In this document: positions 24,274 to 31,593 of the stretch, piece by piece | Numbering within the stretch: position 1 is the first letter of the stretch | Layout: every line of letters begins with the position of its first letter | From: Aquisphaera giovannonii | GTDB taxonomy: Bacteria > Planctomycetota > Planctomycetia > Isosphaerales > Isosphaeraceae | Assembly: GCF_008087625.1 (NCBI RefSeq) | Contig: NZ_CP042997.1 | Location: 8,184,001-8,248,000 of the forward strand | DNA length: 64,000 nucleotides | Direction of reading: 5' to 3' | Translations under genes and position numbers: made by a program | The notes under the pieces: model-generated | What the model saw: the letters and a program-made list of their open reading frames with translations, nothing else | The model's database searches: none | What the model was told of the DNA's origin: nothing

Positions 24274-24678
24274 ATGCGGGTACACGCCGATCCTGCGCTC
24301 CGCGTCCTCGTCGTGGACGACAACGTCGATACCGCCGCCAGTCTCGCCCTCCTCTTCGAGTCATGGGGGCACGAAGTCGCCCAGGCCCACGACGGCCCGC
24401 AGGCCATCCGGGTCGCCCACGAGATGCGGCCGCACGCCGTCGTGCTCGACGTCGGGTTGCCGCTGATGGACGGGTTCGAGGTGGCCCAGAAGCTCCGCCA
24501 GCTCCCCGGCGGGGACCGCGTCCTCATCGTCTGCTCGTCGGGCTTCAATCGGGAGGTCGATCGCCGACGGGCCGACGAGGTGGGGATCGATGAATACCTG
24601 GTGAAGCCCTTCGACCCGTTCGCGCTCGAAGGGATGCTGGCCGCCTGCCGGCCCTCCCGCCAGGCCCTGTCGGCCTGA
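24274..24678 (+). CDS. Stand-alone response-regulator receiver domain
   Basis: 134 residues consisting of a single receiver domain: VLVVDDNVD with the acidic pair Asp15/Asp16, the phosphoacceptor Asp59 in VVLDVGLP, CSSG in the switch position, and Lys111 in LVKPF. There is no output domain, so it acts through a partner, as CheY-type proteins do. It runs convergent to the HK-KaiC-receiver operon, so a functional link is possible but not shown. The ATG at 24274 is chosen over a TTG at 24226 because the domain starts right after. Confidence 0.88.
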   Translation: MRVHADPALRVLVVDDNVDTAASLALLFESWGHEVAQAHDGPQAIRVAHEMRPHAVVLDVGLPLMDGFEVAQKLRQLPGGDRVLIVCSSGFNREVDRRRADEVGIDEYLVKPFDPFALEGMLAACRPSRQALSA

Positions 24679-24757: not shown

Positions 24758-25135
24758 TCACGCCCGGCCGGCTCCTTCCGGCGTGCCGACGAATCGCCGG
24801 ACGGTCCGCAGCAGGTCCTCCAGCCCGAACGGCTTGCGCAGGAACGCGTCCCAGCGGTAATCCCGCTGCTTCACGCCCGGCTGCACGGAGCTCATCAGGA
24901 CCACCGGGATCCCGTCCAGGCCCGGGATGCCCTTCATGGTGCGGAGCACTTCCAACCCGCTGAGGTACGGCAGCATCACGTCCATCAGCAGCAGGTCGGG
25001 CTTGCTCGCCTTCAGCCGTTCGAGCGCGGCCCGGCCGTTCGAGCACGAGTCCGTGCCGTAGCCTTCGCCCTCGAGTATGGACCGGAGCATGCCGACCAGG
25101 TCGAATTCGTCGTCGACCACGAGGATGCTCTTCAT
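24758..25135 (-). CDS. Receiver protein at the end of the HK-KaiC operon
   Basis: 125 residues: ILVVDDEFD, phosphoacceptor Asp52 in LLLMDVMLP, and Lys101 in FLRKPF. It has no output domain. Its start codon overlaps the stop of the KaiC-like gene (ATGA at 25132-25135), so the two are translated together. It is the likely phosphate acceptor of the upstream histidine kinase; what it binds is unknown. Confidence 0.88.
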   Translation of the reverse strand: MKSILVVDDEFDLVGMLRSILEGEGYGTDSCSNGRAALERLKASKPDLLLMDVMLPYLSGLEVLRTMKGIPGLDGIPVVLMSSVQPGVKQRDYRWDAFLRKPFGLEDLLRTVRRFVGTPEGAGRA

Positions 25136-26649
25136 GGCTGGTCCTCCTTGACCGATGGCGCCGCGGTGGCTCGCCCGAGGCCCGTCAGGATCGCCTCGGC
25201 GCTCTCGAAGGAGGCGGCCACGTCCAGGCCTTCGTCGGTGATCCTGAATTCCCGGATGGACGTGTCGTAGCGGCTCTCGCGCATCTTCATGATCGACAGC
25301 AATCGGTAGAGCTGCGACCGCAGCTCGACGTAGCGGAGCAGGATGACCGTCTCGACGACGTTGGCCAGCTCCGGGTTGGGCATGTCGATCTCGGGCCGGA
25401 AGAGCGGCAGCTCCTCGGTCATCACCGCCGTCACGTCGGACGCCCGGAGCTGATTGCAGAACGCCGAGAGGAAGCGGGGCAGCCGGTCGGGGTAGACCGA
25501 GGCGGCGCGGAACCCCTCGACCCCGTCGAAGAAGAGCCGCCGGCGCGGCTTCTGGTGCTCGCGGATCTTCTCCAGCAATTGCTCGGCCAGGGAGTCGAGC
25601 ATGTGTTCCAGCGGAGGCTGCCAGACGACATCGATCAGGCCCTCCTCGACGTATTTCTCCAGCTCGATCCCCACCTGGCCGGCCTTCTCCAGCAGCCGCG
25701 GCGGCGGCTCGTAGAACCCGAAATAGGTGCCGTGGTGACCCTGCCTGGCCCCCTCGACGAGGAACGAGAGGCCGAGCAGGGTCTTGCCGGTCCCGGGGGC
25801 GCCCAGCAGCGCCGTGGTCGAGCCCGATGGGAGGCCGCCGAAGAGCATCCTGTCCAGCTCGGCGACGCCGAACGGCATGCGGATCCGCTGCTCGGTCGCC
25901 TGGCCCGGCGGCTTGTCGAACTGGATCTCGGTGCGGGGGTGGATGACGATGCCCCCCTCGGTGATCTCGACCTCGTGACGGCCCCGCAGGTAGTCTCCGC
26001 CGCGGAACTTGTGCACCACCAGCTCGCGCACGGCCCGCGGGCCGATGAGCTGGTCGCTCAGCTCGATGACGCCGTCGACCACGGCGTTCTCGGTGAACGA
26101 GTAGCTCGGGTCCTTGAAGCACATCAGCAGCGAGGTGCAGCCGATCAGGGCCGTGAACGCCTGGAGCTCGTGGACGAACTCCTTGATCTTCTGCTCCCCC
26201 TCGGCGAACTGGCGGATGCTCTCCATGCCGTCGACGACCAGCAGGGTCGCCTGGCGGTCCCGGAGCGTCGCCCGGATCAGCTCCAGCAGGGCGTCGGGCC
26301 CGCCCTCACGCAGCGCCGAGTAGCCGCTGACGTAGTAGAGCCGCTCGGGGATCATACCGGTGTCGAAGAATTTCAGGGAGGCGAGGTGGCGGAGCATCTT
26401 GGCGTGCGACTCGACCAGCAGCGAGATGTAGACGCAGCGGCCCCCGGCCCGCCCGATGTGGTTGAAGCATAACTGGTTGCCGAGGATCGTCTTGCCGCTG
26501 CCGGGCGGGCCGATCAGGTTGTAGGTCCCGCCCTTGAGGAAGCCCCCCTTGAGGATGTAGTCGAGGCGCGGGATGCCGCTCTCGACCCGCTCCGGGCCCT
26601 CCGGCGGGGGCTGTCGTTCCTCGGGCTCGCCGATCTGATGGAATGCCAT
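25132..26649 (-). CDS. KaiC-family double RecA ATPase, lacking clock phosphosites
   Basis: 505 residues with two RecA-like repeats. Walker A motifs are GPPGSGKT (47-54) and GAPGTGKT (283-290); LLVVDGMES is Walker B of the first repeat. The C-terminal block YVELRSQLYRLLSIMKM, then IREFRIT, is the KaiC signature. Aligned with Synechococcus KaiC over the run before ILLRYVEL, Ser431/Thr432 correspond to Ala429/Asn430 here. One of each pair of catalytic glutamates also appears lost (LVES, YEPP). It is thus a KaiC relative used for signalling or scaffolding, not an oscillator as known. It sits between a histidine kinase and a receiver. Confidence 0.92.
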   Translation of the reverse strand: MAFHQIGEPEERQPPPEGPERVESGIPRLDYILKGGFLKGGTYNLIGPPGSGKTILGNQLCFNHIGRAGGRCVYISLLVESHAKMLRHLASLKFFDTGMIPERLYYVSGYSALREGGPDALLELIRATLRDRQATLLVVDGMESIRQFAEGEQKIKEFVHELQAFTALIGCTSLLMCFKDPSYSFTENAVVDGVIELSDQLIGPRAVRELVVHKFRGGDYLRGRHEVEITEGGIVIHPRTEIQFDKPPGQATEQRIRMPFGVAELDRMLFGGLPSGSTTALLGAPGTGKTLLGLSFLVEGARQGHHGTYFGFYEPPPRLLEKAGQVGIELEKYVEEGLIDVVWQPPLEHMLDSLAEQLLEKIREHQKPRRRLFFDGVEGFRAASVYPDRLPRFLSAFCNQLRASDVTAVMTEELPLFRPEIDMPNPELANVVETVILLRYVELRSQLYRLLSIMKMRESRYDTSIREFRITDEGLDVAASFESAEAILTGLGRATAAPSVKEDQP

Positions 26650-26653
26650 GCGT

Positions 26654-27832
26654 CTATCCCCGATTCGGGCCGTGCCCGCTCCCCGCGGCCGACGGCCCTT
26701 CGTCGACGGGCAGGCGTTTCCTGGGCAGCGTGACGGTGAAGGTGGCCCCCCGGCCCGGCTCGCTCCGCACGCCGATGGACCCGCCGTGAGCCTCGACCAG
26801 CGAGCGGACGATGTACAGGCCCAGCCCCAGGCTCTCCTTGCGATACCCCTTCGAAGCGCGTTCGAACCGGCCGAAGATCCTGGCCTGATCCTCGGGAGCG
26901 ATCCCCGCCCCCTGGTCCTCGACCTCGAGGACGGCCGTCTCCTCGTCGGCGTGGACGCGCACGGTGACGGGCCGCCCGCCCCCGTACTTGAACGCGTTGC
27001 TGAGCAGATTGCCGAGCACCTGCTCGATCTTCTGCCGATCGAAGTAGCCGATGATCGGCCCCGCGATCTCGGTCACGACCGGCGTCGAGGATGACTCGGC
27101 CCGCTCCCGGAATCGGCCCGCGGCTTCCTGCACCAGGTCGGCCAGGTCCAGCGCCTCGATGTCGAGCTGGATCCGGCGGTTCATGATCCGCGAGACGTCG
27201 AGGAGGTTGTCGACGAGCCCCGAGAGCCGCTCGGTCTGCCGCCGGCTCACGTCCAGGTGGTGGACGACCTGGGCCGGGATCTCCCCGTGCCGCACCAGCG
27301 CCCTCCGGAGGAGCTGGTTGGCGAGCTGGAGCGAGAAGAGCGGATCCTTCAGCTCGTGGGTGGCGATGGAGAAGAACTCGTCGCGGACCTCGAGCGCCCG
27401 CCTCAGCTCCCACTCGGTGGCCCGCCGATCGGTGATGTCGAGGAATGTCAGGAACGCCAGGGGGGCCAGCCCGTCGGCGGCGGGGAGCCTGCGACAGAAG
27501 ACCCGAAAGTCGAATTCACGGCCGCGTGCATGCCAGGAAACCTCGACGCCCCCGGGTGCCGTGGCCGGCGAGGCGATCGCCCGGGCGAGATCCCGAGGAT
27601 CGATGCGGGCGCCGTCCCGCTCGACGAAATAGTCGTCGCCGTCATGCCCTTCCGCCGGGGGCCTCAGGGGGATGTCCCTCGCCGCCGGATTGTCGATCAG
27701 GGCCTCGCCGGATTCGAGGTCCACGACCAGGGCCGGGAACGGGCAGAGGTCGACCATCATGCCAAGCCAGCCCCGCTCGTCGTCGGGGACGGGCTTCGCG
27801 ACGCGTGGTCGAACGGAGTGATGATCGCTCAT
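26654..27832 (-). CDS. PAS-type sensor histidine kinase
   Basis: 392 residues with no membrane segment. A PAS-like sensor region (about 20-135; ALVVDLESGEALIDNP) precedes the HisKA helix with phospho-accepting His159 in SIATHELKDPLFSL, then the ATP-binding part: NLLSNAFKYGGG (N box), EDQGAGIAPED (G1) and LGLGLYIVRSLVEAHGG (G2). It is four bases upstream of the KaiC-like gene, and starts at the ATG at 27832. Unlike cyanobacterial SasA it has no thioredoxin-like KaiB-type domain. It is likely the kinase for the downstream receiver. Confidence 0.92.
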   Translation of the reverse strand: MSDHHSVRPRVAKPVPDDERGWLGMMVDLCPFPALVVDLESGEALIDNPAARDIPLRPPAEGHDGDDYFVERDGARIDPRDLARAIASPATAPGGVEVSWHARGREFDFRVFCRRLPAADGLAPLAFLTFLDITDRRATEWELRRALEVRDEFFSIATHELKDPLFSLQLANQLLRRALVRHGEIPAQVVHHLDVSRRQTERLSGLVDNLLDVSRIMNRRIQLDIEALDLADLVQEAAGRFRERAESSSTPVVTEIAGPIIGYFDRQKIEQVLGNLLSNAFKYGGGRPVTVRVHADEETAVLEVEDQGAGIAPEDQARIFGRFERASKGYRKESLGLGLYIVRSLVEAHGGSIGVRSEPGRGATFTVTLPRKRLPVDEGPSAAGSGHGPNRG

Positions 27833-28305: not shown

Positions 28306-31300
28306 CTACTTGCGGGCGAACACGTCGGCGGGGAAGAGCAGATCGTAGATCATCAGCCTGAAGTCCGGCCGGTCCCGCAGCGAGTCCAGGTCGCCGTCCG
28401 TGAGCAGTAGCCTGAGCTGCGCCGGGTCATTGAAATGCCCCGTCGCGCGGACAAGGCCCAGGATCTCGACGGCGCGTGCGGCATACCCGGCGGAGATCGT
28501 CGCCGCACCCGGCGGAGCATTGTTCATGTGCCGAACAGCGGAACATGAAAGCGCGTAGACGCACGCGGCGTTGTAGGCGTTGAGGGGCGAGCGGAAGGCC
28601 GCCGCCGCCGAGGCCGTCGCCCGGGCGTGGTCCCCCATCCGGGCCAGCGTCAGGGCCCGGCTGGAGACATAGTCCTCGCGAGACGGCTCGGGGGCGTCGC
28701 GGATCGCCCGGTCCCAGGCGGCCAGCGCCTCCGGATACCGGCCGAGCGCCTCGAGGGCCTCGGCTCGCCCCGCGCATGTGAACGAGGCGGAGGAGTCGGG
28801 CGGCAAGCCCTCCTGAAGTTCGAGCGCCCGGTCCCAGGCGGACAGGGCCTCCGCGGGGCGGCCCAGGGCATCCAGGGCCGCGCCACGTTGACTCATCACG
28901 TTGCGGAGATAGCGCCTGGCCTCGGCGTGCCGGGGTTCGGCCCGGAGCACGCCCTCGAGCACCCCGCTCGCGCGGTCGAACCAGCCGATGGCGGCCCGGT
29001 GATCACGCCGGGACGAATGCAGCTGGCCGAGGTTGCCGTAGATCCCGCCGAGCTGGACGTTCAGCTCCACCTGCTCCGGGTGGTCGGCGGCGAGCCTCTC
29101 GCGGAGCGGGACGGCGCGTCGGTAGGCGGCCTCGGCCTCGTCGAACCGCCCAAGGGCCACGTAGGCGATGCCGAGATCGTTGAGGCAGAGGGCCAGGGAC
29201 GCCCGGTTCTCGGTGACCTCGGGCTCGTCCTCGACCAGCTCGTCCCAGAGCGGCACGGCCCCCCGCAGGGCCTGCACGGCCTCGTCCAGCCGGCCGGCCC
29301 GGCGCTGCACCTCGCCGAGGTTGAGCCGGAGCTTCGCCAGGCCCTTTCGGTACGGTGAGACGTCGGGATGCTCCTTGAGCAGGCCCGCGACGATCGCCTC
29401 GGCCCGGAGATAGGCCGCACGGGCCTCCACCATCCGTCGCGTGTCGCTGGCGAGGTGGGCCACGTTGGAGACGGCCATGGCGAGGTCGAATCGGGAATCG
29501 GCCCGCGAGGGCTCGCCCCTGGCCTGCTTGCCGTACTCGTCCACCGCCCGCTCCAGGTTCGACCTCGCCTCGCCCCAACGCCCGGTCTCCTGGGCGATCC
29601 GCCCCAGGTTGGCATAGCTGGTCCCCAGGCCCGCGTGATGGCGGAAGACCTCGGGCTGCTCCCGGACCAAAGCCTCGGCGAGGTCCCTGGCCTTGCGGAA
29701 TTCCTCCTCGGCCTCGGCCAGGCGGCCGGCCTGGAGGAAGACCGAGCCGAGGTCGACCCGCGCCCTGGCCAGGCCCTCGCGATATCCCGCGTCGTTCGGG
29801 GAGCCGGCGGCCAAAGTCTCGTACATCGCGACGGCGCGCCTGAGCATCGCCTCGGCCCGGTCGGTCCGGGAGGTGGCGGCGGCCAGTCGGCCCGCGCGGT
29901 CGAGGCCGCCGGCGAGCGTGGACCGGTATCGCGGCTCGGCGGGGGCCTCGCCGGCGAGCCCCTCGAGCACCTCAACGGCCCCCCGGTAGGCCTCCTCCGC
30001 CTCTTCGACCCGGCCGAGCTTCAGGGTGATATCGCCCGCTCGAAGGCCCGCCTCGGCGGCCTCGTGGCGGACCTCCGGCCGGCCGCTCTGGCGGAGGGCG
30101 AAGCTCCGGTAGAACCGCAGGGCCCGCTCCAGCAACCGCCGCTGGTAGGCGTCCATGCCGGGCCGCCCTTCGACGTCCGCGGCGACCTGCGTGTACATCT
30201 CGTCGACGATCTGCCGCGCCACGTCGAGATTCCCCTCGGCCTGGAGGCGCAGGCGCCGCTCGTTGCGGGCGGACAGCATGAGGCCGATCGCCGCGGCCGC
30301 GACCAGCGTCGCCAGGGCGGCCGTGAGGCCCGCCACCGCCGGGTGTCGCCCCGACCACCGCACCAGCCGGCCAATCGGGCCGACCCTCCGCGCCTGGATC
30401 GGCCGGCCGTCGAGGAACCGCCGGAGGTCGTCGCCCAGGTGCCCGGCCGAGGCATACCGCTTCGCCGGGCGCTTCTCGAGGCATTTCAGGCAGATCGTCT
30501 CCAGGTCGCGCGACAGGCCGGGGCGCAGGCGGCCCGGGGAGACCGGCTCGACCGCGATGACTTGCCGCAGCGTCTGATGCGTGGACTCGGCGCGGAACGG
30601 CGGCCGGCCGGTCAGCATCTCGTAGAGGATCACCCCCAAGGCGTAGACGTCCGCCGTCGGGCCGACCTTGCCCGGGCCGCCGGCCTGCTCCGGGGCCATG
30701 TAGCTGGCCGTCCCCAGCACGTCGCCGGTGCGGGTGAGGGACTCCCCCCCCTGGACGAGCTTGGCCAGGCCGAAGTCGGCGACCTTGGGCGTCCCGTCCG
30801 CCGCCAGGAGCACGTTGCTCGGCTTGAGGTCGCGATGGACGACCCCCCGGGCGTGCGCGTAATCCATGGCCCGGGCCAGCACCTCGGCGGTCTCCGCGGC
30901 GCGGCGGACGGCCCACGGGATGCCGTCCAGTTTCTGGGCGAGCGTCCCCCCCGCCGCGTACTCCAGGAGCAGGCAGGGCAGCCCGTCATGCTCTGCGACC
31001 TGGAACACCTGGACGATGTTCGGGTGCTGGAGCCGCGCGACGGCCTCGGCCTCGGTGCGGAAGCGGGCCGATGCCCAGGGCGAGCCGTCGGCCCCGGCCA
31101 GGATCATCTTCAGAGCGACCTCGCGGTTGAGCCCCGGCTGCCGGGCGCGGTAGACCACCCCCATGCCCCCCCGGCCGAGCACCTCCAGGACCTCGCAGCC
31201 CGCGACCATCCTCCCCGCCGGCATCGCCACGCCGTCGACGGACGCCGTCGACCGATCGCTCGCGACGGTGGACTCCACCAGCGAGGACTCGATCGCCCGA

Positions 31301-31593
31301 TGCACCTCGAACTGGACGGCCAGCTCGGTCGCCCATTGCGGGAACCGCCGTTGATACTCCTCGAGCTGGGGCGACTGGCCCGCCTGCTCGCGCAGGATGA
31401 CCTCCTGGTAGATGAGGCAGAGCGCATCCTCGGAACGATCGACCAGGTGGGGATGGCGATCGAGATACGCCTCCACCGGCGTGCGCTCACCCAGCCGCCA
31501 TCGCCGGCGCTGATCCTCGAGCACGTCCGCCCGCGTCTCGTCGCGGCCCGATCCTGCCGGCTCCGGGGTGAATGACTGGGGCGGCTGGGTCAT
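28306..31593 (-). CDS. Ser/Thr protein kinase with C-terminal TPR repeats
   Basis: 1095 residues. After a 125-residue N-terminal region comes a Hanks-type kinase (about 130-400): glycine loop LGRGGMGVVYRA, catalytic HRDLKPSNVLL, DFGLAK and ASYMAPEQA. A likely transmembrane helix around 420-440 (VAGLTAALATLVAAAAIGLM) puts the remaining ~640 residues on the other side. That part is a long TPR-like array (repeats such as LGRVEEAEEAYRGAV), possibly an external protein-binding sensor. The domain order is common in planctomycetes. Substrates are unknown. Confidence 0.95.
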   Translation of the reverse strand: MTQPPQSFTPEPAGSGRDETRADVLEDQRRRWRLGERTPVEAYLDRHPHLVDRSEDALCLIYQEVILREQAGQSPQLEEYQRRFPQWATELAVQFEVHRAIESSLVESTVASDRSTASVDGVAMPAGRMVAGCEVLEVLGRGGMGVVYRARQPGLNREVALKMILAGADGSPWASARFRTEAEAVARLQHPNIVQVFQVAEHDGLPCLLLEYAAGGTLAQKLDGIPWAVRRAAETAEVLARAMDYAHARGVVHRDLKPSNVLLAADGTPKVADFGLAKLVQGGESLTRTGDVLGTASYMAPEQAGGPGKVGPTADVYALGVILYEMLTGRPPFRAESTHQTLRQVIAVEPVSPGRLRPGLSRDLETICLKCLEKRPAKRYASAGHLGDDLRRFLDGRPIQARRVGPIGRLVRWSGRHPAVAGLTAALATLVAAAAIGLMLSARNERRLRLQAEGNLDVARQIVDEMYTQVAADVEGRPGMDAYQRRLLERALRFYRSFALRQSGRPEVRHEAAEAGLRAGDITLKLGRVEEAEEAYRGAVEVLEGLAGEAPAEPRYRSTLAGGLDRAGRLAAATSRTDRAEAMLRRAVAMYETLAAGSPNDAGYREGLARARVDLGSVFLQAGRLAEAEEEFRKARDLAEALVREQPEVFRHHAGLGTSYANLGRIAQETGRWGEARSNLERAVDEYGKQARGEPSRADSRFDLAMAVSNVAHLASDTRRMVEARAAYLRAEAIVAGLLKEHPDVSPYRKGLAKLRLNLGEVQRRAGRLDEAVQALRGAVPLWDELVEDEPEVTENRASLALCLNDLGIAYVALGRFDEAEAAYRRAVPLRERLAADHPEQVELNVQLGGIYGNLGQLHSSRRDHRAAIGWFDRASGVLEGVLRAEPRHAEARRYLRNVMSQRGAALDALGRPAEALSAWDRALELQEGLPPDSSASFTCAGRAEALEALGRYPEALAAWDRAIRDAPEPSREDYVSSRALTLARMGDHARATASAAAAFRSPLNAYNAACVYALSCSAVRHMNNAPPGAATISAGYAARAVEILGLVRATGHFNDPAQLRLLLTDGDLDSLRDRPDFRLMIYDLLFPADVFARK

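Follow-up and report, generated by a model that had tools for sequence, protein, structure and literature searches.

A KaiC-like ATPase and its receiver partner in Aquisphaera giovannonii: a probable non-clock signalling module

An operon of the planctomycete Aquisphaera giovannonii encodes a sensor histidine kinase (HK), a KaiC-like ATPase and a single-domain receiver (REC); it lies within a 64,000-nucleotide stretch of the genome, here called the window (Table 1). Because its self-phosphorylation residues are lost and its gene neighbours encode phosphorelay proteins, the KaiC of this operon very probably serves as a partner in signalling that uses ATP, rather than as a clock protein. The explanation that we favour, and to which we give somewhat better than even chances, is a non-clock signalling module built from KaiC and the receiver, to which a sensor kinase is attached; in it KaiC would be an ATP-dependent scaffold or effector. 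A timing function of the module is not expected.

The three genes sit exactly where the initial annotation had placed them, with 4 nt between the HK gene and kaiC and a 4-nt overlap (ATGA) between kaiC and the receiver gene. Coding bias is strong in all three (GC3, 0.90-0.95). The AAGGAGG motif lies 7 nt before the receiver ATG, and its embedding in the end of kaiC supports a predicted coupling of receiver translation to that of kaiC. An Rfam scan of the operon locus gave no match. Two other genes of the window lie beside the operon: a second receiver gene, the orthologue of which occupies the same place in another genome, and a large open reading frame directly upstream on the same strand, separated from the operon by about 470 nt.

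Table 1. Features of the operon and related loci (plain coordinates are window positions; prefixed coordinates belong to other contigs or loci)
Feature	Position	Strand	Length	Remarks
HK (sensor histidine kinase)	27832-26654	minus	392 aa	Pfam HisKA and HATPase_c
KaiC-like double RecA-domain ATPase	26649-25132	minus	505 aa	two Pfam KaiC ATPase domains, E=7e-69
Single-domain receiver (REC)	25135-24758	minus	125 aa	Pfam Response_reg; no output domain
Shine-Dalgarno-like AAGGAGG for receiver gene	25149-25143	minus		near-perfect; inside kaiC 3' end
Second single-domain receiver	24274-24678	plus		convergent with the operon
Orthologue of second receiver, genome G029	L059:7048-7485	minus		beside a 90%-identical KaiC
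Large ORF, Ser/Thr protein kinase-like	28306-31593	minus		long repeat-like C-terminal region
KaiB-KaiC locus, same genome	C2:71958-73687 (L009:5908-7754)			131.7-kb contig; KaiB 117 aa
Third KaiC locus, same genome	C1:5768189-5771600 (L010:6178-9598)			KaiC at C1:5768216
HK upstream of kaiC, Archangium lansinium	L045:3700-4959			apparently truncated or frameshifted; kaiC and rec intact

By its sequence the HK is predicted to be a cytoplasmic, PAS-like kinase with intact H, N and G boxes (H159 in THELKDPL, N279, DQGAGI and GLGLYIV). A PAS-like N-terminal region (residues ~19-132) precedes the HisKA (150-217) and HATPase_c (265-372) domains. Sequence gives weak grounds for calling this region PAS (E 0.06); in the predicted structure the N-terminal part folds with a PAS-like topology, and among the structures matched over the whole length are several histidine kinases with PAS or LOV domains. 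The receiver has the phospho-acceptor D52, the acidic residues D8/D9/E10, S82 and K101-P102. The two proteins together hold the residues of a two-component phosphorelay, namely the His and the N and G boxes of the kinase and the acceptor Asp and acidic pair of the receiver. As the receiver is without an output domain, it must act by contact.

The KaiC protein was aligned by MAFFT with Thermosynechococcus KaiC, and reference positions are given in S. elongatus numbering. As the initial annotation had read, the phosphosites S431 and T432 are replaced by A429 and N430, with no Ser or Thr placed there by the alignment, and one Glu of each catalytic pair is altered: V79 stands in place of the CI hydrolytic base E77 and Y313 in place of the CII kinase base E318, while the second Glu of each pair (E80 and E314) is kept. 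T426 is replaced by P424, R393/R385 are absent, and a loop deletion makes the KaiB-binding (B) loop in CI six residues shorter. Identity to cyanobacterial KaiC (S. elongatus/T. elongatus) is about 24%. What the operon protein shares with it is the double RecA-like ATPase architecture, both Walker A motifs (the Lys/Thr pairs of the P-loops) and the ATP-clamp residues K214/R216 and K455/R457. What it lacks, besides the autokinase base, the phosphosites, the CI base and the full B-loop, is a score typical of clock proteins: it reaches 137.7 bits against the NCBIfam circ_KaiC model (TIGR02655), below the curated equivalog cut-off of 546.25. In the cyanobacterial protein, E318 is the residue that activates the hydroxyls of T432/S431, and an E318A mutant is without phosphoryl transfer; E77 does the same for water in CI, and Mg is coordinated by E78/E319 (PMC2777353). 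Given these losses and the role of E318, autophosphorylation of the operon KaiC at the canonical sites is very unlikely. Both rings are likely to bind ATP; no hydrolysis rate can be predicted, as other KaiC classes are also without the first CI Glu. An AlphaFold prediction for KaiC, built from seven orthologues, reached a pLDDT of 47.5, too poor for hexamer or docking features, and was not used.

To see which features belong to the family, we compared 67 distinct proteins, the window's KaiC and relatives at 35-90% identity, picked by KaiC similarity alone. They come from three phyla, being found in Planctomycetota, Myxococcota and proteobacterial (alpha/beta) plasmids; since 53 of the 67 are myxococcal, sampling is uneven and the counts that follow are of non-independent events. 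A receiver gene lies directly downstream of kaiC at every one of the 67 loci, at a gap of -3 to +39 nt, and 44 have the same 4-nt overlap as the window. Seven further plasmid loci, examined afterwards, all had the receiver as well, and an adjacency seen at 74/74 loci is more than chance. D9, E10, D52 and P56 are invariant among the 67 receivers. In the KaiC proteins E77 and E318 are both replaced in 67/67 (the E318 position being Tyr or Phe in 59), Thr is never present at position 432 (0/67) and the B-loop is shortened. The Walker A Lys of both P-loops, K214/R216 and K455 are retained throughout (67/67) and R457 in all but three (64/67). Hydroxyl residues at 431/432 number none in 28 proteins, one in 35 and both in 4; with 39/67 relatives keeping one or more, some residual phosphorylation may occur outside the close clade.

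The kinase is the less constant partner. An HK gene lies directly upstream of kaiC at only 37 of the 67 loci; KaiC and the receiver are therefore the core unit, and the HK is optional, added or swapped. At 25 myxococcal loci the upstream HK carries its own N-terminal receiver, giving the order (REC-HK)-KaiC-REC, and at three loci (L065, L129 and L130) the downstream receiver is itself fused to an HK, giving KaiC-(REC-HK); REC-HK fusion within the operon is seen in two lineages. A more distant haloarchaeal kaiC has the same gene order, with a receiver after kaiC. In Archangium lansinium the HK gene upstream of kaiC appears to be damaged (Table 1).

These counts bear on the direction of signalling, which gene adjacency alone does not reveal. 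In the main alternative KaiC would instead act upstream, as an ATP-charge sensor that gates the HK or the transfer from HK to receiver (a phosphotransfer scaffold), with the receiver signalling outside the operon. We consider this unlikely, but several observations speak for it. Most of the close planctomycete/myxococcal clade keeps the order HK-KaiC-REC, and both partners co-diverge with KaiC (r=0.90 for HK distances and r=0.89 for REC distances, values that also count for the favoured module and that shared species history inflates). KaiC is also the slowest evolving of the three genes in this clade, with identities of 66-76%, against 43-55% for HK and 40-59% for REC when the near-identical G029 copy is excluded. 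However, KaiC and REC occur without an HK directly upstream at 30/67 loci, which means that the function shared by the subfamily cannot be to gate a dedicated HK next door; on the same count, the HK may have been added locally.

The rest of the genome provides a comparison for the second alternative, a reduced clock or hourglass timer. Two further double-domain KaiCs are present besides that of the operon. One, carried by a contig other than the main chromosome, is a canonical KaiC that keeps the ST phosphosites and both EE pairs (HISTITD, FEE/YEE) and groups with cyanobacterial KaiC in the tree; a KaiB gene directly upstream overlaps it, and a hybrid HK comes before both. This pair is possibly a KaiBC timer in a planctomycete. 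The other has T/Y phosphosites and SE/DE Glu pairs, and a hybrid HK-REC gene directly downstream. No KaiA was found in a search of the genome. The initial annotation had noted no KaiA or KaiB nearby, which is correct for the locus, and for KaiA extends to the genome; the one KaiB found lies on the other contig. A timer reading of the operon can draw on this KaiB and on the homology of the operon protein to clock KaiC (8e-54 against KaiC chains of solved structure), but we regard it as highly improbable. The operon KaiC has an incomplete B-loop and neither phosphosites, T426 nor a kinase base, the circ_KaiC score is far below its cut-off, the genome's KaiB adjoins a different KaiC that keeps all of those clock features, and the authors of PMC3164672 argue that KaiCs of this kind probably fail to sustain cyclic timing. 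On the residues, the B-loop and the location of KaiB, the clock reading was rejected. That the KaiB-adjacent protein of the same genome is the opposite of the operon KaiC at these sites supports the signalling module.

A third alternative, that KaiC is a pseudo-enzyme in decay which travels with an ordinary two-component pair, would account for the lost active-site residues but is scarcely credible, and was rejected on conservation: KaiC is better conserved than either of the other operon proteins, its replacement residues are themselves conserved in the close clade (AN in 11/12, Y313 in 12/12), both P-loop lysines are invariant and the kaiC frame is open with strong coding bias.

Returning to the KaiC-receiver module, the receiver acts by contact and kaiC is its only constant gene partner; hence, the most economical mechanism is one where phosphorylation of the receiver alters its binding to KaiC. 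The HK would phosphorylate the receiver on D52, as other HKs would do at loci elsewhere. KaiC would form a hexamer with a conformation set by bound ATP or ADP, and the phosphorylated receiver would dock on, or be released from, this hexamer. Output would then pass through contacts between proteins, under the joint control of phosphorylation and ATP state, and the receiver Asp would take over the role of phospho-switch that S431/T432 play in the clock.

The operon appears to have a myxococcal origin. In the tree the four planctomycete orthologues group together (100/100) inside a 12-member clade whose other eight sequences are myxococcal, and this lies inside a clade of 33 myxococcal and four planctomycete sequences (100/100). 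Relatives at >56% identity to the operon KaiC are mostly myxococcal, and 52 of 146 Myxococcota genomes carry members of the subfamily, often several. In the organism's own family, 3/45 genomes (the window's included) carry an orthologue at a level of at least 77%, and in an even draw of 392 Planctomycetota genomes three, again including the window's, had any match at 1e-40. The nesting of the planctomycete copies suggests horizontal acquisition from Myxococcota as the simplest reading.

This type of KaiC is already known, having been outlined in 2011, but is experimentally little explored. The Ramlibacter genome paper (PMC3164672) described a third ('black') kaiC context (e.g., Rta_35460) in which kaiC is frequently followed by a receiver gene or lies near an HK, nearly all members have zero or one phosphosite, and the cluster is without kaiB. 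The operon agrees on each point, with a receiver after kaiC, an HK nearby, no kaiB in the cluster and zero phosphosites. However, that context is described as heterogeneous, whereas the operon is planctomycete, has the order HK-KaiC-REC and belongs to a group with a uniform signature (E77, E318 and T432 lost). It differs from the second context, defined by a specific HK after kaiC and SY/TY sites, in its upstream HK and AN sites; the third KaiC of the genome fits that second context, and the KaiB-adjacent protein resembles the first. A study of myxobacteria reports 50 KaiC homologues that are without both phosphosites, and states that the B-loop is missing and that the genes are expressed (PMC11832031); receiver pairing and loss of catalytic Glu, both seen in the subfamily here, are not described in the passages cited. 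KaiC-REC fusions occur in Methanosarcinaceae (PMC5847659), and archaeal KaiC-like ATPases have been proposed as signal-transduction hubs (Makarova et al. 2017, as cited in PMC5847659). As cited there, these are likewise linked to two-component proteins, but they are archaeal and sometimes fused, while the operon is bacterial with separate genes. The present comparison adds the planctomycete member and shows, for the subfamily, that a receiver is paired with every KaiC sampled, that the first Glu is systematically missing from both rings and that the HK is optional. The initial proposal, in which KaiC is connected to a two-component pair and not to an oscillator, fits these findings in outline, with two refinements: the constant partner is the receiver, and the type is not new.

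Non-clock KaiCs are common and functionally unexplained. Our comparison defines a sharp, testable class, with the first Glu lost in both rings, no Thr432, a short B-loop and a receiver gene immediately 3', and makes the receiver, rather than the kinase, the first partner to test. Each of the three published kaiC contexts has a representative in this single genome, where the canonical KaiB-KaiC pair can serve as an internal control. It is possible, though we advance it tentatively, that these proteins form a coherent, bacteria-wide class of KaiC hexamers that are kinase-dead and have had their built-in phosphosites replaced by a dedicated receiver, and that receiver phosphorylation together with the ATP state of KaiC drives a conformational switch. 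If true, KaiC signalling would here follow a principle of its own, unlike that of clock KaiC and unlike that of ordinary two-component systems.
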